Source of the DNA: Sphingomonadales bacterium 28-55-16
GTDB lineage: Bacteria > Pseudomonadota > Alphaproteobacteria > Sphingomonadales > Sphingomonadaceae
Direction: 5' to 3'
NCBI GenBank assembly: GCA_002278855.1
Contig: NCGG01000011.1
Location: 1-64,000, forward strand
Length of the DNA: 64,000 nucleotides
The notes beneath the pieces were generated by a model. The model did not search any database. It was not told the DNA's origin and saw only the letters and a list, made by a program, of their open reading frames with translations. This document shows positions 1,626-32,192 of the stretch, one piece after another. Position 1 is the first letter of the stretch; each line of letters begins with the position of its first letter. A program made the position numbers and the translations under genes.

Positions 1626-2921
1626 TTAGCCCTGCGCGATCATCCAAGAGGAACCCCGGTTTTTGACGGCGGCATGCGCATCTACAATGCGTTGAACCTC
1701 ATCGCCCCACAACCTTAGCGCCTCTTGTTTTTCGACCGTATATTTATGGCGGTGATAAACTCCAGCGACCCCGGCTTTGGCAGCTCCAGACTGATGGTTA
1801 AGCACTGCTTCGGACACAACCAGCGGTACGCCCAAGCGTTGTAAGCCCGTCGCAGCGGTACGGCGGATGTCATGCGGCGTGAAGTGCAAGATGTTACGAT
1901 CTGTTTCGCGCAGCACTGAAGCCATAATCCGTCGCCAACCTTTAGGCATGCCGCCGGTACTATGAGCTGGATTGCCAATTGCCGGAAAAACTCTGTTCCC
2001 GGACAACCCAAACTCATTGGAGCTTGATGCAAACATATCTCGTATTTCTTCAATAATGCTCACAGATTGAGCCGATAAGGGAACGATGTTGGCGATCCCG
2101 TTTTTCGCTCGGCTGCCAGGAATGGTCCACAGATTTGCGTCAAAGTCGAATTCGTCCCATTCCGCATTGATGACTTCGCCGCGGCGCTGCGCAGTCAAAA
2201 TCAGTAAACGCACCACCGTGCCGAAAGGATACCCCTCGCCAAGTGAAGCATCCCACAACTGCCCGAGTTCATAGTCTGACAAAACACGGTCGCGCGGCTT
2301 AGATGCTTTTGGTCGCCACGCATCCCTGCAAGGATGAGCCGGTAATCGGTCCAGCTTTGGCATCGCCCATGAATAAAAACTCGATAAATGCTGATGCACT
2401 GACCGCGCCATACGCAGCGTTTCTTTACCCCGGCAAAATGCCATCTTCTCGATGAAGCGTGTCACATCGCCGCGGGTTACCGTATCAGCTATCCGGTCGC
2501 CCATTTCCGGAAGAATATATTTGCGAAATACTCGCTCTATTTCTCGCGCAGTTCGCTTTTTCCCTATGACCTCGTTCGTCAAATATGTTTCAAACAGCTC
2601 GCCAATTGTGCCAATTCCCTGGGCATATCCGCGATTGGGATCGGACCGCTTGGGGATGCTTTGTCCCTGCTCAATGTCGGTAAGCAAATCTCGCGCACGA
2701 CGACGCGCAGCGGCAAGTCCAAAGCCCAGCGAATGCCTGCCCAATGTCACATTATGAACCTTGCTGCCGATACGCTTTCGCAAGATGTAAGTTTTAACGC
2801 CACTCGCTCCGACCCTCAGGCGTAAACCAGCTACGATTGAGTCCGTAATTTCGATTTGTCCGATTTTCGGTGGTAATAATCCAACGATACGGGCATCTGT
2901 AAGACCGACTTTTTTTGACAC
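1626..2921 (-). CDS. P4-type tyrosine integrase (site-specific recombinase)
   Basis: A 431-residue recombinase that would integrate and excise the element at the tRNA-Lys gene just upstream. Residues 1-90 are the DUF4102-type arm-binding domain (LTDARI... GLRLRV... YILRKRIG... LGRH). The middle is a SAM-like core-binding domain. The C-terminal domain carries the catalytic set: Arg in TAQRRGEV, Lys in RAKNG, His-x-x-Arg in TPHDIRR, His in LNHQSG and Tyr in GVYHRHKY. The full length argues for an active enzyme. It is transcribed away from the att site at 3035-3097. A 15-bp palindrome lies 9 bases upstream of its start. No excisionase gene is visible in the window. Confidence 0.93.
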   Translation of the reverse strand: MSKKVGLTDARIVGLLPPKIGQIEITDSIVAGLRLRVGASGVKTYILRKRIGSKVHNVTLGRHSLGFGLAAARRRARDLLTDIEQGQSIPKRSDPNRGYAQGIGTIGELFETYLTNEVIGKKRTAREIERVFRKYILPEMGDRIADTVTRGDVTRFIEKMAFCRGKETLRMARSVHQHLSSFYSWAMPKLDRLPAHPCRDAWRPKASKPRDRVLSDYELGQLWDASLGEGYPFGTVVRLLILTAQRRGEVINAEWDEFDFDANLWTIPGSRAKNGIANIVPLSAQSVSIIEEIRDMFASSSNEFGLSGNRVFPAIGNPAHSTGGMPKGWRRIMASVLRETDRNILHFTPHDIRRTAATGLQRLGVPLVVSEAVLNHQSGAAKAGVAGVYHRHKYTVEKQEALRLWGDEVQRIVDAHAAVKNRGSSWMIAQG

Positions 2922-2930
2922 AAATCACCT

Positions 2931-2945
2931 GTTACCTTAGGTAAC
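2931..2945. promoter_or_regulatory. Palindrome GTTACCT-T-AGGTAAC upstream of integrase
   Basis: A perfect 7-bp inverted repeat around one central T, 9 bases upstream of the integrase ATG. The position suits an operator or an integrase arm site. No protein is known to bind it; the assignment is inferred from symmetry and location. Confidence 0.4.
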
Positions 2946-3034
2946 ATTTTGTACTGGATACTAGTGAACATATCAAGAACTATATGGATGGTGAGTCTAG
3001 GTTTTCTGCCATTTTTGGACAGTTAAGGACACTT

Positions 3035-3072
3035 AGCGACCCACTGATTATTCTTTTAATCAGTAGGTCGCT
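3035..3072. repeat. 38-bp near-perfect inverted repeat spanning the integration crossover
   Basis: The left arm is 3035-3050 and the right arm 3057-3072, around a 6-base centre (ttcttt). Outer pairs are AGCGACC/GGTCGCT, inner pairs ACTGATTA/TAATCAGT, with a single mismatch (C 3042 against A 3065). The right arm belongs to the tRNA-Lys 3' half, while the left arm is element sequence. Two inverted core-binding arms around a short overlap is the architecture of a tyrosine-recombinase core site. Confidence 0.6.
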
Positions 3073-3097
3073 GGTTCGAACCCAGCAGGGCTCACCA
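3053..3097 (+). other. attR: 3' fragment of tRNA-Lys(UUU), not a complete tRNA
   Basis: From the anticodon loop CTTTTAA (3053-3059) to the encoded CCA (3095-3097) the sequence is a tRNA-Lys 3' half: anticodon stem TCAGT, T arm GCTGG-TTCGAAC-CCAGC, acceptor strand AGGGCTC, discriminator A. The matching 5' half (acceptor GAGCCCT, D arm, anticodon 5' stem) is absent upstream. This is the displaced tRNA end left at the right junction after integration. The restored tRNA-Lys should lie at the left junction, outside the window. Confidence 0.8.
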
Positions 3098-3828: not shown

Positions 3829-3847
3829 ATGACATTGATAATGTCAT
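3829..3847. promoter_or_regulatory. Operator-like palindrome ATGACATT-GAT-AATGTCAT
   Basis: A perfect 8-bp inverted repeat with a 3-base spacer, between the divergent DUF4345-like and MBL-fold genes. Its size and symmetry suit a TetR-type operator. A related 17-bp palindrome (TGACACTT-C-AAGTGCCA) lies upstream of the second dehalogenase at 10865-10881, and the two agree at 11 of 17 positions. The TetR-family gene at 11815-12444 is the obvious candidate ligand; this is inference. Confidence 0.4.
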
Positions 3848-3893: not shown

Positions 3894-4982
3894 ATGCGTA
3901 CACGCAGCAAGATAATTTTGGGTATTGGCGCGCTGGCATTGATGGCGGGCATCACGGTCAAAATGCGGCAGGCGGACGTAGGTACCATGCTGTTTGAGCG
4001 CGCCGTGCGCGAGCGCGTCGGCCGCGACACAACCGCCGCCTTACCCGATGGCTTGCACATCGCGCTGTGTGGAACCGGCTCGCCACTGCCCAGCCCCAGC
4101 CGTGCCGGTCCATGCAATGTCGTGATTGCGGGTAAGCAAATTTTCGTCGTCGATGTTGGCGAGGGTGGCGGGCGCAACATCAACATGATGGGCATCCCTC
4201 TCGGGAAGATTGAGGGCGTATTACTGACCCATTTCCATTCGGACCATATTGACGGCATGGGTCCATTGATGATGAACCGTTGGGTGGGTGGCACGAACAC
4301 CAGCCCCCTCCCCGTCTTCGGGGCAACCGGCGTGGAAGCGGTGGTCGCTGGCTTCAACGCGGCCTATGCCATCGATAACAGCTATCGCACGGGACACCAT
4401 GGCGCCGCTATCGCACCGCCAAGCGGTGCAGGCGGCAAAGCTATGCCCTTCACGCTCCCCGAAGCAGGCAAGGGCAACACTGTCGTCGTATTGGAAAAAG
4501 ACGGACTTAAGATTACCGCTTTCCGGGTCGACCATGGCCCGGTGGATCCTTCGGTTGGATACCGCTTCGATTATAAAGGCCGTTCGATCGTGATTAGCGG
4601 CGATACCAAAAAATCGACATCGCTGATCGCCGCATCAAAGGGCGCAGACCTGTTGGTGCATGAAGCACTGCAGCCCAAGCTTGTCGCGATGATCACCGCA
4701 GGACTTGAGACAAAGGGCAGCAAGAATTTGGCCCAGATTACCCGCGATATTCTCAATTACCATACCAGCCCCGAGGAAGCGGCCGAGTCCGCAAAAGAAG
4801 CAGGCGTGAAACAATTACTGCTCAGCCATATCGTCCCCGCCATCCCTTCGAAATTCTTCTACCCCGCTTTTCTGGGTGACGCGACCAAACGCTTTGGCGG
4901 ACCGATTGTGGTGGGCGAAGACGGCATGATCTTAACGCTGCCAGCAGGCAAAAGCACAATTACCGAAGACAATTTAATGTAA
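3894..4982 (+). CDS. MBL-fold metallo-hydrolase, RNase Z/AtsA-like, exported or anchored
   Basis: A 362-residue metallo-beta-lactamase-fold enzyme. Residues 1-22 are a signal or anchor segment. The zinc motif HFHSDHIDG (HxHxDH) lies near residues 113-121; further metal ligands fit DHGP, ISGDTK and a terminal LSHIVP. The opening GTGSPLPSPSRAGP and VDVGEG are typical of the RNase Z-like branch, which includes the AtsA type of arylsulfatase. Given the sulfatases next door, a zinc-dependent sulfatase or related esterase role is possible but unproven. I chose ATG 3894 because GGGAG at 3881-3885 gives normal spacing; ATG 3888 is the alternative. It is the first gene of a tight plus-strand series. 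Confidence 0.75.
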   Translation: MRTRSKIILGIGALALMAGITVKMRQADVGTMLFERAVRERVGRDTTAALPDGLHIALCGTGSPLPSPSRAGPCNVVIAGKQIFVVDVGEGGGRNINMMGIPLGKIEGVLLTHFHSDHIDGMGPLMMNRWVGGTNTSPLPVFGATGVEAVVAGFNAAYAIDNSYRTGHHGAAIAPPSGAGGKAMPFTLPEAGKGNTVVVLEKDGLKITAFRVDHGPVDPSVGYRFDYKGRSIVISGDTKKSTSLIAASKGADLLVHEALQPKLVAMITAGLETKGSKNLAQITRDILNYHTSPEEAAESAKEAGVKQLLLSHIVPAIPSKFFYPAFLGDATKRFGGPIVVGEDGMILTLPAGKSTITEDNLM

Positions 4983-4994
4983 GGATCACGCCCA

Positions 4995-6002
4995 ATGTAT
5001 GCAATCAACGGAGCACTGGGTTCACCTTACTCGATGAAGATCCGCGCGCTTATGCGGTATCGGCGTATCCAGCATTTGTGGGTGCACGGCGCAGGCTCCC
5101 GCGATGCGCTGAGCAAAGTCAAAGCCCCTGTCATACCTATTGTGGAATATCCCGATGGGACATTCCACAATGATTCGACACCACTCATCTATGATCTGGA
5201 GGCACGGCACGCCGAGCGTTCAGTGATCCCGCCCGATCCAGCACGCGCCTTCATCGCACATCTTATTGAGGATTTCGCCGATGAATGGGTAACAAAGGCA
5301 ATGTTTGGTTACCGTTGGCTCGACGAAGTAGACCAGATCCAGATGAGCCGATGGCTCGCTTTTGATGCGATGAAGGGCGGCGGGTTGGAGACGAGCCAGC
5401 GATATGCCGAACAGTTCCGCGCGCGCCAAGTCGGCCGCATGGCGATCGTCGGTTGCACGGCTGAAAATTTCCCACTGATCGTGGCCTCAACCCGCGCGCT
5501 GCTGAGCGCGCTGGAGGCGCATGTGGTGGATCAACACTGCCTGTTCGGCACCCGCCCCAGCCTTGCTGAATTCAGTATGTACGGGCAGCTTTCACAGCTT
5601 GGTGTTGACCCCACGGCGCAGACAATGATGCGCAACGATTATCCCTACAGCTTTCGCTGGCTGCTCCATATTGACGATATGTCTGGAATAGACGGGGAAT
5701 GGGACACAGAAATCACCGGTGCGGATACACCCTTCGCCCCTATTATCACCGCCTGGTTGAAACAGGTGGGCGAAATCTACATGCCCTTCCTGCGCGCAAA
5801 CGCCGCCGCGATTGAAGCTGGAGACGAAATGTTCAGCATCACGGCCATGGGCCTGCCCTATACGCAAGGCGTCTTCAAATATCAGGTAAAGTGCCTGGCC
5901 GACTTGCGCGCGCGCTACGCCGCGCTCGATGCAGCTGCGCGCGGGCGCATCGATCCGCTGCTCGCGCAGACCGGTTGTCTCAACGCATTGCTGAACCAAT
6001 GA
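4995..6002 (+). CDS. Glutathione S-transferase family protein
   Basis: A 335-residue cytosolic protein. Residues 1-80 form a thioredoxin-like GST N-domain: GSPYSMKIRALMRY at the start of helix 1, then a cis-Pro region (VKAPVIPIVEYPDG) and the glutathione-contact segment NDSTPLIYDLE. The C-terminal part is an all-helical GST_C-like domain, longer than usual (common GSTs are about 200-230 residues). The gene starts 12 bases after the MBL gene and overlaps the sulfatase start (ATGA), so the three are likely translated from one message. GSTs in catabolic clusters can do thiolytic dehalogenation, ether cleavage or isomerisation. The substrate cannot be read from sequence. Confidence 0.8.
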   Translation: MYAINGALGSPYSMKIRALMRYRRIQHLWVHGAGSRDALSKVKAPVIPIVEYPDGTFHNDSTPLIYDLEARHAERSVIPPDPARAFIAHLIEDFADEWVTKAMFGYRWLDEVDQIQMSRWLAFDAMKGGGLETSQRYAEQFRARQVGRMAIVGCTAENFPLIVASTRALLSALEAHVVDQHCLFGTRPSLAEFSMYGQLSQLGVDPTAQTMMRNDYPYSFRWLLHIDDMSGIDGEWDTEITGADTPFAPIITAWLKQVGEIYMPFLRANAAAIEAGDEMFSITAMGLPYTQGVFKYQVKCLADLRARYAALDAAARGRIDPLLAQTGCLNALLNQ

Positions 6003-7789
6003 ACCTGAAGGCACCGGCAACCCTCATGACGGCGTTTGCGTTGCTCAGCTCGGCAACGCTTGGCGCACAGCCAGCACCGGCGAAACGCCCCAATATCGTC
6101 ATCCTCCTTGCCGACGATTGGGGCTTTACGGATGTAGGGGCCTTTGGCGGGGAAATTGCGACCCCCAATATCGACGCACTTGCTGCCAAGGGTGTTCGTT
6201 TTTCGAACTTCCACGTGGCGGGATCCTGCTCGCCAACGCGCGCCATGTTGCAAACCGGGGTGATCAACCACCGCGCTGGCCTCGGGAATATGCCTGAGAC
6301 AATCCCGCCGGAACATCTTGGCAAGCCAGGCTATGAAGCGCACCTCACCAACCGGGTAGTGACCATCGCTGACCAGCTACGTGCTGGCGGCTACCGTACC
6401 TATCTGACCGGAAAATGGCATCTGGGGCATACGCGCGATACCCTGCCGACAGCGCGGGGCTATGATCACGCGCTCGCCCTCGCGCAATCGGGCGCAGACA
6501 ATTTTGAAGATAAGCCCAACCTCCTGATTTACGACAAGACCGAGTGGAGCGAGGATGGAAAGCCCGCAAAACTGCCCAGGCGCTTCTACTCCTCAACGCT
6601 TATTGTCGATAAGATGATTGGTTACATCGACCGCGGCAAGGCGAGCGGAAAGCCTTTTCTGGCATCCGTCAATTTCATAGCGAACCATATTCCGGTGCAG
6701 GCGCGAGATGCTGACATTGCGGCTTATGCGGGGCGCTACAATGCGGGCTGGACTGTGCTGCGCACCGAACGCCGCGCCGCTGCGATCGCCAAAGGCGTGA
6801 TGCCTGCAGGCGTTCCAACGGTGACCATGAAGACCAGTGGTGATTGGTCAAAATTGTCGGCAGAGCAGCGGCGGCAACGTAGTGGTGCGATGGCCGCTTA
6901 TGCTGGCATGGGCACGGCGATGGACCGTGAAATCGGCCGATTGATCGCGCATCTAAAGGCCATCGGCGCTTATGATAACACCATCTTTGTATTTCTATCT
7001 GACAATGGCGCAGAAGCCACAGATCCGATGAACATGGGTGCATTTGCACGCTGGAACGCCAATCAAGAATATAATCAAAGCATCGCCCAACAAGGGCGCC
7101 CGGGTTCGCTGACCGCACAAGGTGCTGGATTTGCCAGCGCATCGGTATCGCCGCTGCGTGGATACAAATTTACCGCGAGCGAAGGTGGCTTGCGTGTCCC
7201 GATGGTCATAGCCTGGCCAGGCAACCCAGCGATCAAAGGCGGCAGCATTGCGACCGGTTTTGCGCATGTCACCGATATATCGCTGACTTTACTAAATCTC
7301 GCCAAAATCACGCCGCAGCAAGGCAGCTTTTTCGGGCGCAGCGTCGAGCCAATGATCGGGGCGGACCTGTCCCCCATGCTCACAGGCAGCGCATCGTCGG
7401 TCCATGCAAAAGACGCACCATTGGGCTATGAATTGTCTGGCAATGCCGTGTTGTTCAAAGGCGATTACAAGCTCGTCAAAAACTTGCCGCCTTATGGAGA
7501 TGGCCGCTGGCGGCTTTACAACATCAGCGCCGATCCCGGAGAGACCTTAGATTTATCGGGCTCCGACCCAGCCCGCTTTGCGGACATGCAAAAGGATTAT
7601 GTTGCCTTTGCCAAGGCAAACAAAGTGTTGCCGATGCCAGAAGGTTACACGGCGCCCAAACAGATTTTTGCCAATGCGATGCGCACGTTGCTGTTCCCTC
7701 GGCTGCTCAGATTATGGCCTATGGGTGTCCTATTATTGATGACAGCAGCGGCCGTGATCTGGTGGCGCAGACGGCGGAATCCCCGGTGA
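5999..7789 (+). CDS. Formylglycine-dependent sulfatase, secreted, C-terminal anchor
   Basis: A 596-residue type I sulfatase that hydrolyses sulfate esters. Residues 1-23 are a signal peptide. The N-terminal motif PNIVILLADDWG holds the metal-binding Asp pair. The sulfatase signature CSPTR starts at Cys77, the residue converted to formylglycine, and the second signature (TGKWHLGH) follows. A metal Asp-Asn pair lies in FVFLSDNGAE. The C-terminal 25 residues form a hydrophobic helix (WPMGVLLLMTAAAVIWW) followed by RRRR, so the enzyme is probably tethered to the inner membrane with its catalytic domain in the periplasm. Its start overlaps the GST stop. The partner FGE is encoded 3 kb away on the other strand. 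Confidence 0.9.
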   Translation: MNLKAPATLMTAFALLSSATLGAQPAPAKRPNIVILLADDWGFTDVGAFGGEIATPNIDALAAKGVRFSNFHVAGSCSPTRAMLQTGVINHRAGLGNMPETIPPEHLGKPGYEAHLTNRVVTIADQLRAGGYRTYLTGKWHLGHTRDTLPTARGYDHALALAQSGADNFEDKPNLLIYDKTEWSEDGKPAKLPRRFYSSTLIVDKMIGYIDRGKASGKPFLASVNFIANHIPVQARDADIAAYAGRYNAGWTVLRTERRAAAIAKGVMPAGVPTVTMKTSGDWSKLSAEQRRQRSGAMAAYAGMGTAMDREIGRLIAHLKAIGAYDNTIFVFLSDNGAEATDPMNMGAFARWNANQEYNQSIAQQGRPGSLTAQGAGFASASVSPLRGYKFTASEGGLRVPMVIAWPGNPAIKGGSIATGFAHVTDISLTLLNLAKITPQQGSFFGRSVEPMIGADLSPMLTGSASSVHAKDAPLGYELSGNAVLFKGDYKLVKNLPPYGDGRWRLYNISADPGETLDLSGSDPARFADMQKDYVAFAKANKVLPMPEGYTAPKQIFANAMRTLLFPRLLRLWPMGVLLLMTAAAVIWWRRRRNPR

Positions 7790-9027
7790 AGGGCTATTGG
7801 CCTAGCCCCTGGCCCAGCGAGGACGGTGGCCCTCGCCGGTTACAGTCGACACCCGATCCTCAGGCTCTGACAGAACCTGCCAGTCTGCGGCTCGCGGCCA
7901 CCTCGCGGCGCCGGTTGATGACGACGATGACCGTGCTCGGCGATCCGGGCGAGATTTTCGTGCTGACCCATCAGGCGCTGCGATCGCAGATCGGACTGCC
8001 GACCACCGCGCAGGTCGAACGTATCGATCCGTTGACGCTGCGCGCCATCGCCCGCAGCCCCCGCCTTGATGGCGGACCGATGTGGCCGGGCGGGATGGCT
8101 ATTCACCGCAATGGTGATCTGTACACCGTCTATGGGCGTCACATCCATCGCCTCGCCCGCGCAGATCTCACTGTCCGCGCAGCAGCGAGATTGCCGGTCA
8201 ATCAGCCCTATAACAGTTTTGTGATCCTCGATTGCGGGTTGATTGTAACGAAGAATCTCTCGGCTCGCTCCACAGCACAGCTTTGCGTGATCGATCCGGA
8301 CGATTTGGCTCTGGTCTGTCCACCGCTCGATTGTGCCGAGCCATCGGTGGCGCGACTCAGCGCGGTTGGAAATACCGTCTATGTCGTCGGTGTACGGACA
8401 TTAACCCGCTATCATTGGGATGGCACTGCCCTGCGGCGCGACGATAGCTGGTCCTGCCCCTATATCGGCGACAGCCAACGCAGCCATGGTTGGGATGCGG
8501 TAATCGGGGACCGGCACCTTTGGCTGATGGACAACGGCCAGCATCGCTATCGTACAAATATGGTCGGGCGCGGCGTTGCGCAGGCACCCAACCGGCTCAT
8601 CCGCGTTGCACTCGCCGATGCTGAAGACTGGCAGTCCATCGACGTGAGCGGTTTGCCGGGTGGCAGCGTCACCAACCCGCCGCTTTGGGACGAAGCACGG
8701 CAAATTGTCATCGCATATGACAGCGCCAATCGCGTCATTTGCGGCTTCCGCTTCGAGGAAGAGAAACGCGCGCTCGTGCCACTGTGGCGGCAAGATGGTT
8801 TGGGCTGCGCCAGCCACATGCTGCATTTTCCCGAAAGTGGCCTGATTTGCACGAATGATTATCAGCGCCGCGAAGCAATCGTTCTGCTCGATATCTCCAG
8901 CGGAGCGATCGTTGCGCGGGTTGAAACAGGAGGGTTGATGCAAGGCGTGGTGTTTCCCTCACCAGGCTGGTATCAAGATTTCTATTGGTGCTCGATGGAT
9001 CAGGTGACGCGGATCGCATTGACCTGA
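7786..9027 (+). CDS. Hypothetical protein, beta-propeller-like, coupled to the sulfatase
   Basis: About 413 residues from GTG 7786, which overlaps the sulfatase stop (GTGA) and suggests translational coupling; an ATG at 7714 inside the sulfatase end is the alternative. I do not recognise a named family. The chain has no signal peptide and no membrane helix. It is rich in short beta-strand blocks such as GDLYTVYGRHIHRL, NTVYVVGVRTLTRY and DRHLWLMDNGQ, repeated at roughly 45-60 residue intervals, which suggests a propeller of the SMP-30/quinoprotein kind. The position directly behind the sulfatase suggests a role on the same substrate. Function unknown. Confidence 0.6.
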   Translation: MKGYWPSPWPSEDGGPRRLQSTPDPQALTEPASLRLAATSRRRLMTTMTVLGDPGEIFVLTHQALRSQIGLPTTAQVERIDPLTLRAIARSPRLDGGPMWPGGMAIHRNGDLYTVYGRHIHRLARADLTVRAAARLPVNQPYNSFVILDCGLIVTKNLSARSTAQLCVIDPDDLALVCPPLDCAEPSVARLSAVGNTVYVVGVRTLTRYHWDGTALRRDDSWSCPYIGDSQRSHGWDAVIGDRHLWLMDNGQHRYRTNMVGRGVAQAPNRLIRVALADAEDWQSIDVSGLPGGSVTNPPLWDEARQIVIAYDSANRVICGFRFEEEKRALVPLWRQDGLGCASHMLHFPESGLICTNDYQRREAIVLLDISSGAIVARVETGGLMQGVVFPSPGWYQDFYWCSMDQVTRIALT

Positions 9028-9042
9028 TCCGCGCAGCCCAAC

Positions 9043-9945
9043 TTATGTCTGTGCAGCGATAAAATTGAGGATGAGGTCGACAAGCTGTTCGGGCTGATCT
9101 TCCTGACAAAAATGGCTAGCGTCAATCCGGCAATGTGGTTGCCCCTTAGCGCCGGGAATGCGCCGCTGAATTTCCGTATCAAGATGACCTAGCACCTTAT
9201 CCTGATCACCAAAGCAAGTGAGCACCGGCTTTTCGAAGCATTCAAGCTGTGCCCAGGCCGCGCGATTTTCGGATACCGAGGGATGCTCTGGCGTTATGGG
9301 TACGAGCACGGGAAACTTGCGGGCGCCGGCCTTAAAGCTTTCATCGGGGAACGGGGCGTCATAAGCGGCGATTTCAGCACTGGTCAGTGCGCGATTACAA
9401 CCGCCATCAACAATCCGACCGGTCTTGAATTCCGGAGTGACCTGACTGAACGTTCGCCAGGCATCGAAACCTGCACTGATATTCTCGCCTATGGGCAAAT
9501 AGGTGTTTGAAATCACCAGCCGCGCAAAACGGTCCGGAAAGGCGGCAACAAGCCGTAAACCAATCAACCCACCCCAATCCTGACAGAACAACGTGATATT
9601 GTTCAGATCAAGTTGCGTCAGCCAGTCACCCATCCACGCGACATGCCGTTCATAGCTATAATCGTCACGGCTCGTCGGCTTGTCAGACTTGCCAAAGCCG
9701 ATCAGATCAGGTGCCAGCACGCGGTGCCCAGCGCCTGCCAGCACTGGTATAAATTTGCGGTAAAGATAGGACCAAGTTGGTTCGCCATGGAGCAGCAAGA
9801 TGGGCGCAGCATCGCTTGGCCCTTCATCTACATAATGGAGGCGCAAGGGTGGCGTGTTCGGCGCATCGACTTCCAGATAATGCGCCACAAAGGGATAGTC
9901 CCGAATGCCGGCGAACACGGCTTCTGGGGTTCGCAAGACCTTCAT
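9043..9945 (-). CDS. Haloalkane dehalogenase-like alpha/beta hydrolase (first copy)
   Basis: A 300-residue cytosolic hydrolase of the haloalkane dehalogenase I (DhlA-like) type, which replaces a halogen on an alkyl carbon with hydroxyl. HGEPTWSYLYR (from 53) carries the Glu of the oxyanion region. The nucleophile is Asp123 in CQDWGG, with halide-binding Trp124 beside it and a second candidate halide Trp at 163. The acid fits Asp247 or Asp249 in CFGDQD, and the base His278 in SHFCQED. It starts 2 bases after the stop of the second copy, so the two form a tandem operon. Some relatives act on other esters, so dehalogenase activity is likely but not proven. Confidence 0.8.
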   Translation of the reverse strand: MKVLRTPEAVFAGIRDYPFVAHYLEVDAPNTPPLRLHYVDEGPSDAAPILLLHGEPTWSYLYRKFIPVLAGAGHRVLAPDLIGFGKSDKPTSRDDYSYERHVAWMGDWLTQLDLNNITLFCQDWGGLIGLRLVAAFPDRFARLVISNTYLPIGENISAGFDAWRTFSQVTPEFKTGRIVDGGCNRALTSAEIAAYDAPFPDESFKAGARKFPVLVPITPEHPSVSENRAAWAQLECFEKPVLTCFGDQDKVLGHLDTEIQRRIPGAKGQPHCRIDASHFCQEDQPEQLVDLILNFIAAQT

Positions 9946-9947
9946 AT

Positions 9948-10838
9948 CTAACGTATTTTTAGGATGCAGTCGACGAAGCCTTGCGGATCATTTTCCTGAA
10001 TGAAGTGCCCGCCCTTCAACGTGCAATGGGGCTGACCCGCGGTACCAGGAACGCGGCCAATAAACCTGCTCTCGCCGCCGCGTGTTACGGGATCGCCGTC
10101 GCTGAAGCAGCACAGGAACGGCTTTTCCCATTGCTCAAACACTTGCCAGGCGCGCTTCTGATCGGGCACCGCGACATTGTTCTCAAACGGAACGAAAGTC
10201 GGGAATATCCGCGCGCCGGCCTTGTAGCTGCTGTTCGGAAAAGGTGCGTCATAAGCCGCAATCTCGGCAGCGCTGAGCGCACGCTTTGCCCCAGCGTTAA
10301 CGATTTTGCCGATGGGGAAGAATGGGCTCCATTGTGAAAAGGCACGCCAAATGGCAAAAGCGCGGGGCGCAGGACCGCCTTCGGGCAGGCCGCCATTGGA
10401 CAGCACGACGCTGGCAAAGCGATCCGGCATTTCCGCGACAAGGCGCAGGCCAATCAACGAACCCCAATCCTGACAGACGAGCGTCATATTGGTCAGGTCA
10501 AGCGCCTCGATCCACTGCCGCATCCAGCCCACGTGGCGTGCGTAGCTATAGTCGGCTTTTTTGGTTGGCTTGTCCGATTTTCCAAAGCCAATCAGGTCAG
10601 GCGCGACAACGCGAAAGCCTGCCGCGACGACCGGGCCAATCATATGGCGGTAAAGGTAGCTCCAGCTTGGCTCGCCATGCATCATCAGCACCACAGGCGC
10701 ATCGCGTGGCCCTTCATCAACATAATGCACGCGCAATGGCGTACCGTCTGATGGGTCAGCAATTTCCAAATAATTGGGAGCAAAAGGAAAATCGTGGATA
10801 TCGGCAAAGGCGCTGTCAGGTGTGCGAAGGATTTTCAA
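9948..10838 (-). CDS. Haloalkane dehalogenase-like alpha/beta hydrolase (second copy)
   Basis: A 296-residue paralogue of the downstream gene, closely similar along its whole length (shared GFGKSDKPT, AEIAAYDAPFP and GQPHC segments). It keeps HGEPSW, nucleophile Asp124 with Trp125 (CQDWGS), a second Trp at 164, an acid candidate in FSDGD (247-249) and His278 in GHFIQE. The lid region (about 150-225) differs most, which is where substrate choice is set in this family. It is first in the two-gene operon. A 17-bp palindrome lies 27 bases upstream. The duplication suggests either two halogen positions on one substrate or recent expansion of substrate range. Confidence 0.8.
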   Translation of the reverse strand: MKILRTPDSAFADIHDFPFAPNYLEIADPSDGTPLRVHYVDEGPRDAPVVLMMHGEPSWSYLYRHMIGPVVAAGFRVVAPDLIGFGKSDKPTKKADYSYARHVGWMRQWIEALDLTNMTLVCQDWGSLIGLRLVAEMPDRFASVVLSNGGLPEGGPAPRAFAIWRAFSQWSPFFPIGKIVNAGAKRALSAAEIAAYDAPFPNSSYKAGARIFPTFVPFENNVAVPDQKRAWQVFEQWEKPFLCCFSDGDPVTRGGESRFIGRVPGTAGQPHCTLKGGHFIQENDPQGFVDCILKIR

Positions 10839-10864
10839 GATATGACCCCTAAGATAAGTTCTAT

Positions 10865-10881
10865 TGACACTTCAAGTGCCA
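10865..10881. promoter_or_regulatory. Operator-like palindrome TGACACTT-C-AAGTGCCA
   Basis: An 8-bp inverted repeat with one mismatch around a central C, just upstream of the dehalogenase pair. It resembles the palindrome at 3829-3847 in length and outer bases (TGACA...TG-CA). It is a possible binding site of the local TetR regulator; inferred from symmetry only. Confidence 0.35.
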
Positions 10882-10897
10882 TATTATGAATAGCGGG

Positions 10898-11818
10898 TCA
10901 AGAAGTTGGCGCAGCCTTCTTCGTGTCAACCAATCGGAATCCGATATGGTCGGTTCCGAGCCCGCGTTCCTGAAATTGACGCGCGGCGGGGCGATAGCGC
11001 GCGCAGTAATTGGCGGCGCAGAGGTAAGAGCCGCCTTTTATGATGTTCACTGCCTCGCTGGCGTCGGCGCGCGATCCTTTGGCGCTGGTCCATTCCCAGA
11101 CATTGCCAACCATATCATACAGACCAAATCCATTTGGCTCAAAGCAGCCAACTGGGGCGCGCCCGACATAGCCATCTGTGTTCAGATTTTTGACCGGGAA
11201 GACGCCTTGATAGTAATTTGCTTGCGGCTTCCCCTTCGCATCAAGCGGCTCCGGCAAAGCCGCCGTGCCGCCGCGCGCAGCATATTCCCATTGGGCTTCG
11301 CTCGGCAATTCTTTCCCTGCCCATCGGGCATAGGCCTCGGCATCCTGATATGCGATCTGAACAACAGGTTCGCGGCCGCGCCCGGTGATGCTTTCATTCT
11401 GCCCAGAGGGATGTCGCCACTGCGCGCCTGAAACCCAGTGCCACCAGCGCGGGTCGGCGTCTGACGGGACATTGAACACCGCCGAACCCGGGACACGCAT
11501 TTCTGGCGGTGCATTGCGCAGCTTGGGCGGATCGCGCTCGGCCATGGTCTTGTAACCGGTGGCCTTTACAAAGGCGGCGAATTCGGCGTTGGTCACTTCA
11601 TGTGTATCGATCCAGAATCCCTTGACCATAACGGTCTGCGGCGGACCTTCTTCAGCATAACGGGCATCATCACCCATCACGAAGCTGCCGCCTGGAACCC
11701 AAACCATATTGTTGCCTGACACGCCCTTGCAGATTGGCTCCGACGGCCCGGATATATCGCTGCAGCCAGAGTGCAGCAGCAGCATAAGACCCAATGCAAA
11801 GCCGGAGCGCGGCATCAC
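10898..11818 (-). CDS. Formylglycine-generating enzyme, lipoprotein
   Basis: A 306-residue SUMF1/FGE-family protein that oxidises the sulfatase active-site cysteine to formylglycine. The start MMPRSGFALGLMLLLHSGC is a lipoprotein signal with a lipobox ending at Cys19, so the protein should sit in the periplasm on a membrane. The fold motifs GGSFVMG, DTHEVTNAEFAAFV, LPSEAQWEYAARGG and GNVWEWT are present. The C-terminal GGSYLCAANYC carries both catalytic cysteines of true FGEs (Cys267 and Cys272), unlike many inactive family members. It overlaps the TetR gene stop by 4 bases (ATGA). Its clients are presumably the two CxPxR sulfatases nearby. Confidence 0.88.
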   Translation of the reverse strand: MMPRSGFALGLMLLLHSGCSDISGPSEPICKGVSGNNMVWVPGGSFVMGDDARYAEEGPPQTVMVKGFWIDTHEVTNAEFAAFVKATGYKTMAERDPPKLRNAPPEMRVPGSAVFNVPSDADPRWWHWVSGAQWRHPSGQNESITGRGREPVVQIAYQDAEAYARWAGKELPSEAQWEYAARGGTAALPEPLDAKGKPQANYYQGVFPVKNLNTDGYVGRAPVGCFEPNGFGLYDMVGNVWEWTSAKGSRADASEAVNIIKGGSYLCAANYCARYRPAARQFQERGLGTDHIGFRLVDTKKAAPTS

Positions 11819-12444
11819 GTCTCCGGCATGCTGGCCAGAGCATCGCCCAACAAACGCTGCACAACAGCCTTGGCATCTTCAACGGAAAGTTCTTGATCGT
11901 GCCGTAACATTTGCCATGTTTGGAAACTCAATATGACATTGAGCCCGCGCCCCGCCGCCAGATCTGCCTTTACCGTCGTTGGCAAATGAACATCAATGGT
12001 TTCCCATTGGAACCGCTGCATCCAGCGATAGTCCTGCATCAGATACGGGGAATTGAAACGCCTAAGGCTGGATGAAATTCGATAGGGCAAAATCGTCTCG
12101 AAAATCTTGGCGCGACGATTGGATATGTCGAACAGCTTCTCTTTCCAAGTTGCGCCAGTTGGCGGTACGAGGATGATGGGCATCACCTGCGCCGCAATCA
12201 ATTCGCCAACTTCTCGGTAAAGTGCATCCATATCGTTAAAATGTCGAAAAACCGAACGGAGCCCGACGCCCGCAACCTCCGCGACCCGCGCCGTGCTGGG
12301 GTCGAATTCGCCCTTACCGATCAAGTCGAGCAAAGCAGCGACAATCTTGCTCCTGCTGGATCGGCTTCTTTCGCGCCGGCCATCAGCCACAAGTGTGGCG
12401 GATGATAAGGTCATTTTGTGCACATGGTCGGTCATAGCCCGCAT
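11815..12444 (-). CDS. TetR-family transcriptional regulator
   Basis: A 209-residue repressor-type protein. Residues about 25-75 form the helix-turn-helix domain (SKIVAALLDLIGKGEF... RVAEVAGVGLRSVFRHFNDMDALYREV). The C-terminal part is all-helical and has no recognised ligand signature. It is co-translated with the FGE gene and divergent from the Cys-rich gene, so it probably controls the sulfatase/dehalogenase cluster. Palindromes at 12458-12469 (TGCACTAGTGCA, 14 bases before its own start), 10865-10881 and 3829-3847 are candidate sites. The inducer is unknown. Confidence 0.85.
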   Translation of the reverse strand: MRAMTDHVHKMTLSSATLVADGRRERSRSSRSKIVAALLDLIGKGEFDPSTARVAEVAGVGLRSVFRHFNDMDALYREVGELIAAQVMPIILVPPTGATWKEKLFDISNRRAKIFETILPYRISSSLRRFNSPYLMQDYRWMQRFQWETIDVHLPTTVKADLAAGRGLNVILSFQTWQMLRHDQELSVEDAKAVVQRLLGDALASMPET

Positions 12445-12457
12445 TTCGCGCTAAATG

Positions 12458-12469
12458 TGCACTAGTGCA
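12458..12469. promoter_or_regulatory. Palindrome TGCACTAGTGCA in the TetR leader
   Basis: A perfect 12-bp palindrome 14 bases upstream of the TetR start, in the 142-base divergent region. A second inverted repeat, TTGGCA-N7-TGCCAA (12528-12546), sits nearer the opposite gene. Either could serve autoregulation. There is no direct evidence of binding. Confidence 0.35.
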
Positions 12470-12586
12470 AGATATTTTGCCCAAAATGAGCGCTAGAGGT
12501 GGCCACAAAAGCGATTGCAAATATATTTTGGCACAATTAATGCCAATAACATCAAATAAAAAAGCTAGTTGAGGAGGTGGGTCAAG

Positions 12587-12838
12587 ATGTCGAAAAAAAT
12601 GCTCATTATGGCGACGTCGGCCATGCTGCTGTCTGCGGCGCCGCTGGCGGCGCAAAACACTGTGCGCGAAGCTTGCATGCCGGATATCCGGCAATATTGC
12701 TCGGCAGAATTAGCAACCTTTAGCCGCGACAAGGTGCGCGCCTGTTTGATCAAGAATATCAAAAAAACCTCACCGGCCTGCCAACAAGCGGCAAAGGCGC
12801 GGCGTGATGCCGAACGCGCCAAGAAGATGGGTAGCTAA
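12587..12838 (+). CDS. Small secreted cysteine-rich-repeat protein
   Basis: An 83-residue protein starting at ATG 12587 behind a strong ribosome site (GAGGAGG at 12571-12577). Residues 1-22 are a signal peptide ending in AAPLAAQ. The mature part is one copy of the Cys-rich repeat seen in Golgi GLG1-type and bacterial periplasmic proteins: C-x2-D-x3-C ... RVRACL-like ... SPAC, four cysteines in all, likely two disulfides. The tail is basic and helical (AKARRDAERAKKM). It is probably periplasmic. The role is unknown; it leads the plus-strand run towards the second sulfatase. Confidence 0.65.
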   Translation: MSKKMLIMATSAMLLSAAPLAAQNTVREACMPDIRQYCSAELATFSRDKVRACLIKNIKKTSPACQQAAKARRDAERAKKMGS

Positions 12839-12842
12839 GGGC

Positions 12843-13475
12843 ATGGCTATATGGATGATATGGGGCACGGCCTTACTCGCTTATGGTCTGTTTCGGCTCT
12901 GGTATGACAATTGGTCTGGCCCGCTGAAACAGGCAGAAATTGATGCTTTTCTCGCGCAAATGGCCGGACGTTTCGAAGCGACAGGAAACAGCGCGGATAT
13001 TCTGCGTGCATTCCTTGAAGGAGATGACGGCCGAGAGTTTGTCATGCTCAATCTCGTTAAAGCCCAGATGGAGCAAGTTGAGGACCCCCAAACCGGACAG
13101 ATGGTTCAAGGCTTTGACCTGCTCAAGCGCTATTCCAAACGCTTCATGCCGGTGCTGTTCCGCAATGGCGGCCATCCCGGCATGGTCGGGCGCAAGGTTG
13201 GCGGCTATATCGATGCTTGGAACACCGAGGCGGATCCCGACTGGACGATCTTTGGCATGATGCGATACCGCAGTCGCCGTGACATGATGAAGTTGGTTAT
13301 GGATCCCGCTTTTAAAGAAGGCCATCCTGACAAGCTGCTGGGTACGCTTGCTACGTTTTCATTCCCTACGCAGCGCGTTGTGTCTTTTTATCTCAGTCCG
13401 CGGGTAACTGTCGCATTGGTTCTGGCTTTGCTTGCGGCGCTGACGCACATTGCATTGTTTACAAGCGCAGGATGA
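12843..13475 (+). CDS. Membrane-tethered DUF1330-like protein
   Basis: A 210-residue protein starting at ATG 12843, 4 bases after the previous stop. A transmembrane segment lies at about 3-20 and another at about 188-207. Between them is a domain with EFVMLNLVK, DWTIFGMMRYRSRRDMMKL and HPDKLLGTLATF, which resembles the dimeric ferredoxin-like fold of DUF1330 proteins (typical phrase FVMVNLLKF). Having this domain between two membrane helices is uncommon. No catalytic residues are known for the family. It is likely transcribed with its neighbours. Confidence 0.5.
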   Translation: MAIWMIWGTALLAYGLFRLWYDNWSGPLKQAEIDAFLAQMAGRFEATGNSADILRAFLEGDDGREFVMLNLVKAQMEQVEDPQTGQMVQGFDLLKRYSKRFMPVLFRNGGHPGMVGRKVGGYIDAWNTEADPDWTIFGMMRYRSRRDMMKLVMDPAFKEGHPDKLLGTLATFSFPTQRVVSFYLSPRVTVALVLALLAALTHIALFTSAG

Positions 13476-13500
13476 TGCGCGGCTTACGGAGCAGCACATA

Positions 13501-13866
13501 ATGCAATGGAATCGGCGCTTATGGATGCGCCTTGCCACGGTCAACGCGCTCGCGTCGGTCTTGGCCCTTATTCTTTCGGCGCATCTGCCTGAGCATCTGT
13601 CCTCGCTTGTGCGGATCGGTGCCCAAATTCAATTCATGCACAGCATGGCCAGCATAGCATGTGCAACTTTCATGAATGTTGGTGCCGTTTCCGCGCGCCA
13701 TGCACCGCCATATCTTCTTGGTGGTTCACTTTTGTTTGCTTTGCTGCACTATGGCGCAGCCTTGGGGTTTTGGGGCACGGCCAACTGGATGACCGGTTTT
13801 GCCGCCGTCGTCATGGCAACTGGTTGGTTGATTATGTCCATATCCGGGCGGAATATAGATCGATAA
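13501..13866 (+). CDS. DUF423-like membrane protein
   Basis: A 121-residue protein with four predicted membrane helices. ATG 13501 follows a weak ribosome site (ACGGAG). The order SAHLPEHL ... QFMHSMASIAC ... GGSLLFALLHYGAALGF ... GWLIMSISG follows the layout of DUF423 proteins (GAHGL ... yHalALL ... GillFsGSLY ... GWLlL), although the motif matches are loose. Function unknown. It sits in a run of small membrane proteins between the Cys-rich gene and the second sulfatase. Confidence 0.5.
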   Translation: MQWNRRLWMRLATVNALASVLALILSAHLPEHLSSLVRIGAQIQFMHSMASIACATFMNVGAVSARHAPPYLLGGSLLFALLHYGAALGFWGTANWMTGFAAVVMATGWLIMSISGRNIDR

Positions 13867-13934
13867 GCTGGAGATTGGGACATATTGAAGATGTTCAAGG
13901 TCAGACGGATAACGGCATTTGCAACGCGCGCGCT

Positions 13935-14408
13935 ATGGGGCTTTGTGGGATGAACGTCTACTTGCCCCCTAGCACCAACGATCAATATCGTGGTTCACGC
14001 TACGCAGCTTGGTTTTTGGCATTCTATGGTATTGCATGGATCGTGCCGGGCGCGATCCATAGCTTCCTACCCGATGGAGGCGCGGGTGTTATTGCAGGTC
14101 TGGATCTCAGTCATAATCCAACAATGATCTTCGGCATGTTTGCGTGGGCGGGCGCAACACAGATTGCACATGGCGTAGTCACGCTGCTGGTTGCATTGCG
14201 TTACCGCGCACTGGTGCCTCTGTTTCTTTTTGTGTCGCTGATCGAGCGTTTATTGCTGGCTTGGTCGGGTTGGATAAAGCATATACCCGTCAGCGGCCAT
14301 CACCCACCCGAACATTATGCCAGCCTGATTTCGTTACCCGTTATACTGCTTTTTTTGTGGCTGTCCGTTCAGCGGTCGCGTTTACACCAGCCGGAGATAC
14401 TTAGATGA
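13935..14408 (+). CDS. Unrecognised four-helix membrane protein
   Basis: About 157 residues from ATG 13935; ATG 13950 is also possible, and neither start has a strong ribosome site. The mature chain has predicted membrane helices near 25-45, 58-85, 88-108 and 130-148, with the conserved-looking features NPTMIFGMFAWAGATQIAHG and HHPPEHYASL. I cannot place it in a family. The stop overlaps the start of the second sulfatase (ATGA), so it is translated with that gene and may assist it or transport its substrate or product. Confidence 0.55.
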   Translation: MGLCGMNVYLPPSTNDQYRGSRYAAWFLAFYGIAWIVPGAIHSFLPDGGAGVIAGLDLSHNPTMIFGMFAWAGATQIAHGVVTLLVALRYRALVPLFLFVSLIERLLLAWSGWIKHIPVSGHHPPEHYASLISLPVILLFLWLSVQRSRLHQPEILR

Positions 14409-16033
14409 GAAAACGCACATGGATTGGGGCGTTGGCGCTATTGATAGGCGCGAGCTATTTCGGCTTTCAGCAATATAAAATTTATCTTCCCGGCATTATT
14501 GGTCAATTACGCGAACCCATTGCCGAAAACCGTCCCGTTGAATGGGCGCAAGGCCCTGCGGTGGCGCCCTCCGACAAACGTCCACCCAATGTGATCTTGA
14601 TTGTCGCCGACGATCTGGGGATGAACGACATTTCGCTTTATGGTGGCGGGGTCGCCGGTGGAGCGGTGCCCACACCCAATATTGATTCGATTGCCAAGCA
14701 GGGCGTCAGCTTTGCCAATGGCTATGCTGCCAATGCCACCTGCTCACCGTCGCGCGCGGCCTTGATGACGGGGCGCTATCCAACGCGATTTGGTTTTGAA
14801 TTTACGGCGGTTCCGGCTGCGTTTGTCGCAAACCTTGCGCATAACGACAGCACGTCACCCTATCCGCCGATCTATCATAAGGAATTGAACCACGGTCTGC
14901 CGGCCTATGCCGACATGGGCGTGCCCAACGCAGAGATCATGTTGCCAGAAATACTGAAGGCAAAGGGCTATCACAACATCCATATCGGCAAATGGCATTT
15001 AGGCGAAGCCAAACCCTTGCGCCCAACGTCGCAAGGGTTTGACGAAAGCCTTGGCATGCGTTCGGGCGGGGATTTGTTTATGGCCGAAGATGATCCTCAG
15101 GTCGTAAATGCAAAGCTACCATGGGATCCGATCGACCGCTTTTTATGGGCGAACTTGCCGCATGCCGTCTATTGGGGGGACAGTGATCGCTTTCGTCCCA
15201 AAGGCCATCTGACCGACTATTTCACCGACAATGCACTGGCCGCAATCGAAGCGAACAAGAACCGGCCTTTCTTCATGTATCTCGCCTATAATGCACCGCA
15301 CACCCCGCTGCAGGCGTTGAAATCGGATTATGACGCCCTTCCGCAGATCAAGGACCATACGCAGCGCGTCTATGGCGCGATGATACGCCAACTTGACCGG
15401 CGGATTGGCGATGTGCTGCAAAAGTTGAAGGCCACAGGCCTCGACGACAATACGCTGGTTATCTTTACCAGCGACAATGGCGGCGCGTGGTATACGGGCA
15501 TCAAGGATCTCAACGCCCCTTATCGTGGTTACAAAGGCACCTTCTTCGAAGGCGGCATCCATGTGCCGATGATGATGCGATGGCCAGGCAAGATCGCCCC
15601 CGGTACTGTTCGCAACGACGTCGCTCAGCACCTTGATATGTTTGCAACGATTGCGGCGGCAACTGGCGCGCGCGTGCCCAGCGATCGTAAAATGGACAGC
15701 TTCAACCTGCTTGGCACTGGGCCAAAGCGCGAAGTCACTTTCTGGCGTTCGGGGCATTACCGCGTTGTCCGCGCAGGCGACTGGAAATTGCAAGTTTCCA
15801 AACGTCCGGAAACGGTGTGGCTGTTCAACCTGGCCACCGATCCTACCGAGCAAATCAACTTAGCTGCCAAGGAACCCGCGCGCGTGGCGGAACTGCGCAA
15901 GTTGATCGACGCACAAAACGCCGGTTTACCCAAGCCATTATGGCCGGGCCTGCTCGAAGGCGCGATCCGGATCGACGTGCCGCTCAATGCGCGGTGGAAG
16001 AAGGATCAGGAATATGTCTATTGGGCGAACTAA
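14405..16033 (+). CDS. Formylglycine-dependent sulfatase, membrane-anchored (second)
   Basis: A 542-residue type I sulfatase. Residues 5-24 are a signal anchor (WIGALALLIGASYFGFQQY). The metal Asp pair is in NVILIVADDLGMND, and the CSPSR signature starts at Cys113, followed by ALMTGRYP. HIGKWHLGEA is the second signature, and the Asp-Asn pair lies in VIFTSDNGGAW. Overall it resembles the arylsulfatase A/GALNS branch. It does not look like choline sulfatase BetC, although the choline genes follow: BetC is soluble and has a distinct C-terminal extension that is missing here. It ends the plus-strand run; 165 bases separate it from betIB. Confidence 0.9.
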   Translation: MRKRTWIGALALLIGASYFGFQQYKIYLPGIIGQLREPIAENRPVEWAQGPAVAPSDKRPPNVILIVADDLGMNDISLYGGGVAGGAVPTPNIDSIAKQGVSFANGYAANATCSPSRAALMTGRYPTRFGFEFTAVPAAFVANLAHNDSTSPYPPIYHKELNHGLPAYADMGVPNAEIMLPEILKAKGYHNIHIGKWHLGEAKPLRPTSQGFDESLGMRSGGDLFMAEDDPQVVNAKLPWDPIDRFLWANLPHAVYWGDSDRFRPKGHLTDYFTDNALAAIEANKNRPFFMYLAYNAPHTPLQALKSDYDALPQIKDHTQRVYGAMIRQLDRRIGDVLQKLKATGLDDNTLVIFTSDNGGAWYTGIKDLNAPYRGYKGTFFEGGIHVPMMMRWPGKIAPGTVRNDVAQHLDMFATIAAATGARVPSDRKMDSFNLLGTGPKREVTFWRSGHYRVVRAGDWKLQVSKRPETVWLFNLATDPTEQINLAAKEPARVAELRKLIDAQNAGLPKPLWPGLLEGAIRIDVPLNARWKKDQEYVYWAN

Positions 16034-16198: not shown

Positions 16199-18196
16199 AT
16201 GCATAAACATATTAACACGCGTCACCAGCATATCATTGCCTCGGCTATCTCTGTTATAGCAGAATATGGGATAGTTGAATTCACGTTCAATAAAGTTGCG
16301 GACCAAGCTGATGTCTCGGCTGCGCTGATTGTACATTATTTTGGGAATAAAGAGGCGCTTCTCGAAGCAGCCTTCCGCTGCGTAGTGCGTCAGCTGAATA
16401 ATGAGGCAACAGTCCGTCTCGGGCTCGCTGCCGGACCCCGCGCGCGCATACAAGCACTGGTTGATTCTCATCTTGGGCATAATGAATATGCCGAGGAGAC
16501 TGCCCGGGTTTGGCTGTCCTTTTGGGGACAGGCGCTGCATGTGCCGCAACTTGCCCGCGTGCAGCGCGCCCATCAAAAGCGCATGTTGTCCAACTTGAAG
16601 TTTGATTTGCGTCAGCTGGTCGACGCGCGTGATGTATCCCCCATGGCGGACACCATAGCCGCGATGATCGACGGCGTTTGGCTGCGCGCATCTATGAATG
16701 GCGGGGGGGCTTTACAAAACGGGTTGGCGCGGGACCTTATCTTTGATTTCATCGCGCGAAATGTCGCATCCGCTTTACCTTCGCCGGTTGCTTCGCATTT
16801 TGACACGATCAATCCGGCGACAGGGCAACTGCTCGCGACAATACGCATCGACGGACAGGCAGAGGTCGACAATGCTGTGGGTCGCGCCGCCGAAGCACAA
16901 AAACTTTGGGCAAAAACGCCCGGTGTGGAACGTGGACGCATCCTCCACCGCGCCGCTGCGTTGCTTGTTGAGCGCAACGAAATGCTCGCCCGACTTGAGA
17001 CGCAAGATACAGGCAAACCCATTCAAGAAACAATTGCGGTGGATGTTTTATCCGGCGCAGATTGTATCGAATATTATGCTGGCCTTGCACGCACGATAGC
17101 CGGTGAACATCATGATCTAGGTACAGGCGCATTCGGCTATTCCCGACGCGAACCCTTGGGCGTTGTCGCAGGTATCGGTGCGTGGAACTATCCCATCCAG
17201 ATTGCCTGCTGGAAATCAGCCCCTGCTCTTGCGTGCGGCAATGCCATGATCTTTAAGCCCGCCGAGCTAACGCCCCTTACCGCGATTGAGCTGGAAAAAA
17301 CCTATCGCGATGCAGGCCTACCGGATGGGCTATTCCAAGTGGTGCAAGGCAAGGCGGACACCGGTCGGTTGCTGAGTCTCCACCCCGACATTGCCAAAGT
17401 GTCGCTGACAGGCGAAGTGGGCACCGGCAAAAAGGTTATGGTCGATGCGGCGGGCACACTAAAATATGTGACCTTTGAACTTGGCGGAAAATCTGCGCTG
17501 ATCGTCTTCGAGGATGCAGATCTGGACGAGGCCGTTTCTGGCGCTCTGCTCGCAAATTTTTATTCTGCCGGCGAGGTATGCACCAACGGCACGCGGGTAT
17601 TTGTGCATAAAACGGTACGCGACGCTTTCCTTGCCAAACTCAAGGCACGCACACAGGCGATGGTGATCGGCGATCCATTGGACCCTGTCACCCAAATGGG
17701 TGCGCTGATTTCGTCGGCGCATATGGAAAAAGTGCTGGGATATATCGCGCTTGGTCAGCAGCAGGGCGCTACCCTGCTTACGGGCGGAAAGCGGGTGATG
17801 GATGGCAATCTTGCGCAGGGGGCCTTTGTGGAACCGACCATCTTCACCGGCTGTACCGACGATATGGCCATCGTCCGCGAAGAGATTTTCGGCCCCGTGA
17901 TGGCAGTGCTCGATTTTGAAGATGAAGCAGAGGTTATTGCACGGGCCAACAATACAGATTTTGGTCTGGCTGCGGGTATTTTCACGAATAACTTGCCGCG
18001 CGCGCATCGTGTCATCGCGGCGCTGGAGGCTGGCACCTGCTGGATTAATACCTACAATATCACACCTATTGAAATGCCATTTGGCGGGAATAAGCAATCA
18101 GGTCTTGGCCGCGAAAACGGCAAGGCGGCGATTGAACATTACACCCAGCTCAAGAGCGTGTATGTCGCAATGGAACCCATCGATGCCCCATATTGA
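16199..18196 (+). CDS. betIB: BetI-BetB fusion: choline repressor joined to betaine aldehyde dehydrogenase
   Basis: A 665-residue single frame. Residues 1 to about 193 are a complete BetI: the HTH (FNKVADQADVSAALIVHYF), then the BetI core (TARVWLSFWGQALHVPQL, MIDGVWLRASM). From about residue 200 it is BetB, which oxidises betaine aldehyde to glycine betaine with NAD(P): FDTINPATG, GIGAWNYPIQIA (Asn330), FELGGKS (Glu427) and catalytic Cys461 in AGEVCTNGTR, ending at PFGGNKQSGLGREN. Normal BetB begins about 20 residues earlier; that first strand is replaced by a Pro/Ala/Ser linker (about 190-200). In typical operons betI and betB are separate neighbours. No Shine-Dalgarno is obvious at ATG 16199. 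A fusion gene could tie repression to enzyme level. Confidence 0.9.
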   Translation: MHKHINTRHQHIIASAISVIAEYGIVEFTFNKVADQADVSAALIVHYFGNKEALLEAAFRCVVRQLNNEATVRLGLAAGPRARIQALVDSHLGHNEYAEETARVWLSFWGQALHVPQLARVQRAHQKRMLSNLKFDLRQLVDARDVSPMADTIAAMIDGVWLRASMNGGGALQNGLARDLIFDFIARNVASALPSPVASHFDTINPATGQLLATIRIDGQAEVDNAVGRAAEAQKLWAKTPGVERGRILHRAAALLVERNEMLARLETQDTGKPIQETIAVDVLSGADCIEYYAGLARTIAGEHHDLGTGAFGYSRREPLGVVAGIGAWNYPIQIACWKSAPALACGNAMIFKPAELTPLTAIELEKTYRDAGLPDGLFQVVQGKADTGRLLSLHPDIAKVSLTGEVGTGKKVMVDAAGTLKYVTFELGGKSALIVFEDADLDEAVSGALLANFYSAGEVCTNGTRVFVHKTVRDAFLAKLKARTQAMVIGDPLDPVTQMGALISSAHMEKVLGYIALGQQQGATLLTGGKRVMDGNLAQGAFVEPTIFTGCTDDMAIVREEIFGPVMAVLDFEDEAEVIARANNTDFGLAAGIFTNNLPRAHRVIAALEAGTCWINTYNITPIEMPFGGNKQSGLGRENGKAAIEHYTQLKSVYVAMEPIDAPY

Positions 18197-23572: not shown

Positions 23573-23616
23573 CGTTTTGCGCCCTCCTCCGGCGTTATGT
23601 TCTTATTTTGGCTAGA

Positions 23617-24783: not shown

Positions 24784-24797
24784 GGGCTAATTCCTTC

Positions 24798-25973: not shown

Positions 25974-25974
25974 T

Positions 25975-30831: not shown

Positions 30832-30848
30832 GCATCAGCCCCCTAACA

Positions 30849-32003: not shown

Positions 32004-32192
32004 ACTGATCCCTTCCCTGCAACGCGAACCATAATGCTCCGGCATGTGTCATGCCTTGGTTGTTGTCACACCTGCATTTCAAAATAAAGCCGTGACATTG
32101 CGTTCGACACTTGTCGATGGGAAAGCGGCACCTCTGCCAAAGTTTAATGGTTTCTGCGTAAACCTGTCTATCCGGTTGAGGCTGACTTCGAG

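Follow-up and report, generated by a model that had tools for sequence, protein, structure and literature searches.

Within the 64-kb stretch of DNA that we analysed (the window), a block of 12 kb encodes two CxPxR sulfatases, an FGE, two haloalkane dehalogenases (HLD1 and HLD2), an MBL-fold hydrolase, a GST-like protein and a TetR-family regulator. Profile searches confirmed the positions and families that an earlier sequence-only reading of this DNA had given for these genes. The block also holds genes that were missing from that reading, at 7918–9027 and for a Cys-rich protein, a DUF1330-like protein and two membrane proteins. The layout implies a plus-strand unit made up of the MBL, GST and sulfatase 1 genes (followed by the gene at 7918–9027), minus-strand units comprising TetR–FGE and then HLD2–HLD1, and a second plus-strand unit, divergent from TetR, that encodes the Cys-rich protein, the DUF1330-like protein, the two membrane proteins and sulfatase 2.

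The first plus-strand unit opens with the MBL-fold hydrolase (3894–4982, in an ORF open from 3885), a member of the RNase Z/AtsA branch with an HxHxDH motif and an N-terminal membrane helix, whose best relatives in the PDB are an MBL-type ‘arylsulfatase’, PNGM-1 and RNase Z. This gene adjoins the block in few relatives. It is followed by the genes for the GST-like protein (4995–6002; GST_N_3, 33 bits for a cutoff of 22) and sulfatase 1 (5999–7789). The protein encoded at 7918–9027 (start uncertain, the ORF being open from 7714) has no assigned family, is found in some blocks only, and gave an unusable structure model (mean pLDDT of 36). On the minus strand lie HLD1 (9043–9945), HLD2 (9948–10838), the FGE gene (10898–11818) and the TetR gene (11815–12444), which is the first gene of the FGE operon, overlaps the FGE gene by 4 bp and has a weak match to TetR_N (22.7 for a cutoff of 24). 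The divergent unit on the plus strand starts with a small secreted Cys-rich protein of 83 aa (12587–12838; PF00839, barely above cutoff). The next product (12843–13475) is membrane-anchored and, in a model of moderate confidence, appears to adopt the dimeric alpha-beta barrel fold of DUF1330-like proteins (3hhl, 3dca), but with two flanking membrane helices; in other genera, a clear DUF1330 protein is encoded after the dehalogenase. Then come a small membrane protein (13450–13866), kept in some blocks, a membrane protein of about 152 aa (13950–14408, ORF open from 13659), kept in most, and sulfatase 2 (14405–16033).

The key families are sparse in the 2.35-Mb genome. Only three sulfatases exceed the PF00884 cutoff, two of them encoded in the cluster, which also contains the single FGE gene and both of the strong haloalkane dehalogenase matches. 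The clustering is therefore no by-product of gene-rich families.

Both sulfatases belong to the formylglycine (type I) class, with PF00884 scores of 180 bits (sulfatase 1, motif CSPTR) and 195 bits (sulfatase 2, motif CSPSR) for a cutoff of 25. Among solved structures, P. aeruginosa PAS (1hdh) comes closest to sulfatase 1, which aligns with it, as with other formylglycine sulfatases, over nearly its whole length, including the CxPxR motif; a signal peptide and a membrane helix at the C terminus set sulfatase 1 apart from PAS. Sulfatase 2, in contrast to PAS, is an N-terminally membrane-anchored relative of carrageenan sulfatases, these glycan sulfatases being its best matches among solved structures. 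In a review of alkyl sulfatases (PMC3920027), PAS counts as a retaining sulfatase and is depicted with docked 2-octyl sulfate, which makes an alkyl sulfate a reasonable candidate substrate for sulfatase 1 by analogy. The FGE is of the aerobic type (244 bits for a cutoff of 23) and shares the whole domain and both active-site cysteines with 5nxl, 6s07 and human SUMF1, its SYLCAANYC segment aligning with SFLCHESYC of 5nxl. Unlike these enzymes it has a lipobox, and hence is a predicted lipoprotein; the lipobox was found in all FGE homologues with a complete N terminus. Given this lipobox and the signals or anchors on both sulfatases, maturation and desulfation probably take place in the periplasm. 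We observed that a third CxPxR enzyme of the genome (CGPGR, C27; L183 2240–3703) has no export signal. Once synthesised, this enzyme would be out of reach of a periplasmic FGE, so that either FGE would have to act before export as well or the CGPGR enzyme would stay unmodified.

HLD1 and HLD2 fall in subfamily I of the haloalkane dehalogenases, with full-length matches to PRK00870 (458 and 433 bits, respectively) far above the curated cutoff of 265. Both have a complete catalytic pentad. In HLD2 numbering this consists of D124, W125, W164, D249 and H278, which align with DhlA (1b6g) and are invariant in ten homologues; the Asp-Trp pair, the cap Trp, the Asp and the His are thus kept as in solved members of the subfamily. 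The sequence-only reading had called HLD1 and HLD2 DhlA-type dehalogenases. They do keep the DhlA pentad, but among solved structures 5esr, 6f9o and 4mj3 stand closer to them than DhlA does. The solved subfamily I enzymes are known as single enzymes, whereas in this cluster an operator links a pair of them with sulfatases and FGE. Neither sequence contains an export signal, and the two dehalogenases are therefore probably cytoplasmic. Haloalkane dehalogenases are widespread in organisms without a record of degrading man-made halocarbons (PMC6299022).

A palindrome is conserved upstream of TetR, as a comparison of this region in about 30 loci showed; it reads TTGGCATTAATTGTGCCAA or a close variant of this. 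In the form WTGRCA-N7-TGYCAW, this 19-bp palindrome is present at all three promoter regions of the cluster: as ATGACATTGATAATGTCAT (3829–3847) before the MBL–GST–sulfatase 1 operon, as TTGACACTTCAAGTGCCAT (10864–10882) before HLD2, and as TTGGCACAATTAATGCCAA (12528–12546) in the divergent promoter of the TetR–FGE and sulfatase 2 operons. The first copy is found at the same place before the GST gene in relatives, and the second is similarly placed there. The pattern occurs 4 times in the window, for 0.16 expected, and none of 100 shuffles reached 4; as it was defined after viewing the sites before TetR, the real test lies in the two other cluster sites and in their conservation. The fourth copy, at 60029 within ftsZ, was taken as due to chance. 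In other species and genera, the operator lies about 35 bp before HLD and 24–61 bp before GST–sulfatase 1. When 41 genomes of the genus were searched for exact matches to a stricter form, these were found only in genomes with cluster genes and nearly all at the cluster. Another palindrome before TetR, TGCACTAGTGCA, was dropped because it was not conserved. We also considered operator-like matches elsewhere in the genome as a source of further regulon members; they were isolated sites, several of them within coding sequence, and none was convincing.

Each transcription unit of the cluster is preceded, then, by a common palindromic operator that is kept across species, as in a TetR-controlled regulon, and TetR is the protein that would bind it. 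A lack of co-regulation had been named beforehand as grounds for giving up the proposal of a joint pathway; sequence comparison did not reveal one, the operator being common to all three promoter regions. The cluster is very probably a single co-regulated unit.

Failure of the block to be conserved together had been named in the same way, and was not observed in genome comparisons, occurrence within the genus being all-or-none. Close homologues of HLD2 (at least 87%), FGE (at least 69%) and sulfatase 2 (at least 81%) were found in the same 14 of 37 genomes and were all absent from the other 23. The genus also has more distant HLD2 homologues (65–81%), which are not accompanied by FGE and sulfatase. 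HLD1 is missing from some blocks, HLD2 being the dehalogenase of the block core. Records labelled Novosphingobium, Sandarakinorhabdus and Qipengyuania also contain the block; the HLD identity there is 89–90% and the neighbourhoods differ, which suggests that the cluster has spread laterally. In Erythrobacter, the same TetR–HLD arrangement is accompanied by a sulfatase about 50% identical to sulfatase 2, located beyond HLD and in the other orientation. The pairing of sulfatase and dehalogenase thus holds as one unit, with an operator in common, all-or-none occurrence in the genus and recurrence in another family, where the sulfatase differs; judged from sequence, it is selected rather than due to chance. 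At 57 HLD loci with adequate flanks, which are not phylogenetically independent, operator and sulfatase were both present in 21, both absent in 31 and mixed in 5; with the same restriction, the sulfatase label required 6 changes on the HLD tree, compared with 27 when labels were shuffled.

Four loci from three genus genomes (L037, L038 and L039, with L085 repeating one of them) contain the operator, TetR, a DUF1330-like protein and HLD but no sulfatase. The dehalogenase part of the regulon may therefore be its more general core, able to serve without desulfation. In L037, L038 and L039, which also lack FGE, a short-chain dehydrogenase gene comes straight after HLD, as if to oxidise the alcohol that dehalogenation yields. 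In one relative (L076, 3493–7891), the genes around the dehalogenase encode a cytochrome P450, another TetR, a protein of the fatty-acid-desaturase family and a DUF1330 protein, hinting at a hydrophobic substrate.

We propose that the cluster is a laterally mobile, TetR-repressed catabolic regulon for one substrate carrying both sulfate and halogen, and we put the probability of this statement as a whole at about 50%. TetR would repress its own regulon until it bound a ligand; the substrate or a product would probably play this part. The three promoter regions would then open, leading to expression of TetR–FGE with the divergent sulfatase 2 operon, of the dehalogenases, and of MBL–GST–sulfatase 1. 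FGE would activate the two exported, membrane-bound sulfatases, which would remove sulfate esters outside the cytoplasm, and the desulfated, hydrophobic alcohol would enter the cell, where the dehalogenases would swap a carbon-bound halogen for a hydroxyl. Oxidation and general fatty-acid degradation, encoded elsewhere in the genome, would follow. Desulfation before dehalogenation is the likely order, since the sulfatases would be periplasmic and the dehalogenases cytoplasmic.

The most likely class of substrate is a natural metabolite, probably algal, that bears a sulfate ester as well as a halogen on a saturated carbon; that a single molecule carries both groups is evenly balanced in our estimate. 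Several points count against the proposal: membership of the haloalkane dehalogenase family is no proof that the natural substrate is dehalogenated, the four loci described above do without a sulfatase, the block encodes no TonB receptor for uptake, and the best matches of sulfatase 2 among solved structures are glycan sulfatases. Freshwater chrysophytes are known to contain chlorosulfolipids, which have also been found in the Eastern Pacific (PMC13413282). These lipids would fit the description of the substrate, and we put them forward tentatively, as a rather doubtful candidate. Carotenoid sulfates of sphingomonads were also considered and set aside: they contain no halogen and receive only a passing mention in the literature. 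In the literature searched, outside which most subscription papers lay, we found neither a description of such a cluster nor any chlorosulfolipid degradation genes or reference operon. Each enzyme belongs to a known family, and what is new is the combination and its regulon. On a bolder and rather doubtful reading, the cluster would be a regulon that bacteria dedicate to halogenated sulfate-ester natural products, the chlorosulfolipids of freshwater and marine algae; it would be the first of its kind to be known, passed laterally among sphingomonads. If this reading held, this clade of haloalkane dehalogenases would gain a natural substrate, and if that substrate were a chlorosulfolipid, a missing sink for these algal lipids would be supplied. 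The operator link of the clade to sulfatases and FGE directs the search towards natural products that are both sulfated and halogenated, and with the TetR regulator as a sensor the inducer could be sought. The carriers are freshwater bacteria related to Sphingorhabdus, with a gene set that appears mobile and under the control of a switch.

The sulfatase-free versions of the regulon would also suit a kit for life beside algae, in which TetR senses an algal signal, the sulfatases attack sulfated exudates and the dehalogenases attack haloalkanes from the same algae, no molecule bearing both groups. That the sulfatases differ between lineages while TetR and HLD remain constant is in line with this explanation, which we consider possible though somewhat improbable; against it, sulfatase and FGE co-occur with the close HLD2 type under the same operator, a tighter association than a loose kit needs. 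To our knowledge, it is mostly unproven what haloalkane dehalogenases do in nature. HLD1 and HLD2 might act without any halogen, serving as plain esterases or epoxide hydrolases, or they might expel a different leaving group. This group could even be the sulfate ester, whose expulsion by the same substitution chemistry is conceivable. We regard such halogen-free roles as unlikely, because both proteins score above the curated cutoff and keep the halide-binding Asp-Trp-Trp-Asp-His set, which esterases and epoxide hydrolases lack. A locus for sulfur scavenging, choline sulfate or sulfated polysaccharide with the dehalogenases as passengers, to which the carrageenan sulfatase matches of sulfatase 2 and the choline-to-betaine genes that follow it might point, is very improbable: the dehalogenase has its own operator copy and is therefore no passenger, no glycoside hydrolase, lyase or uptake receptor (such as a TonB receptor) is encoded among the genes at 3.9–16 kb, and both sulfatases score far below the choline sulfatase cutoff.

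As to the neighbouring genes, those next to sulfatase 2 are true choline-to-betaine (bet) genes, with 830 bits for betA and a cutoff of 732, and they adjoin only some blocks, those of the window and of some relatives; most conserved blocks have no bet genes beside them. A choline sulfate pathway was rejected on this account and because the two sulfatases reach 77 and 112 bits with the choline sulfatase model (betC), for a cutoff of 433. In one of the bet ORFs (16199–18196), a BetI-type TetR regulator and betaine-aldehyde dehydrogenase are fused; the ORF is likewise intact, with 665–670 aa, in L060 and L089, and we know of few regulators fused to an enzyme of their own pathway. The acyl-CoA operon noted earlier about 6 kb downstream does exist (22787–32045), but neither its link to the pathway nor its nearness to the cluster held up. 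Its thiolase gene lies near the cluster in only two genomes, that of the window and G017; the distance is roughly 758 kb in G019 and roughly 1 Mb in G001, in G007 and G013 the gene sits on another contig, and it is also found in genomes without the cluster. The operon was rejected as a part of the pathway since it is unlinked in relatives. Just upstream of the cluster, an integrase gene lies beside a repeat of the tRNA-Lys 3' end (3066–3097, the whole spanning 1626–3097), the intact tRNA-Lys being on contig C37; gene and repeat mark one boundary of an integrated element. Finally, 28 kb downstream (44598–48186), we found genes of the sulfate-activation type, encoding a member of the PAPS-reductase family, a GTPase–APS kinase fusion and a member of the inositol-phosphatase family.
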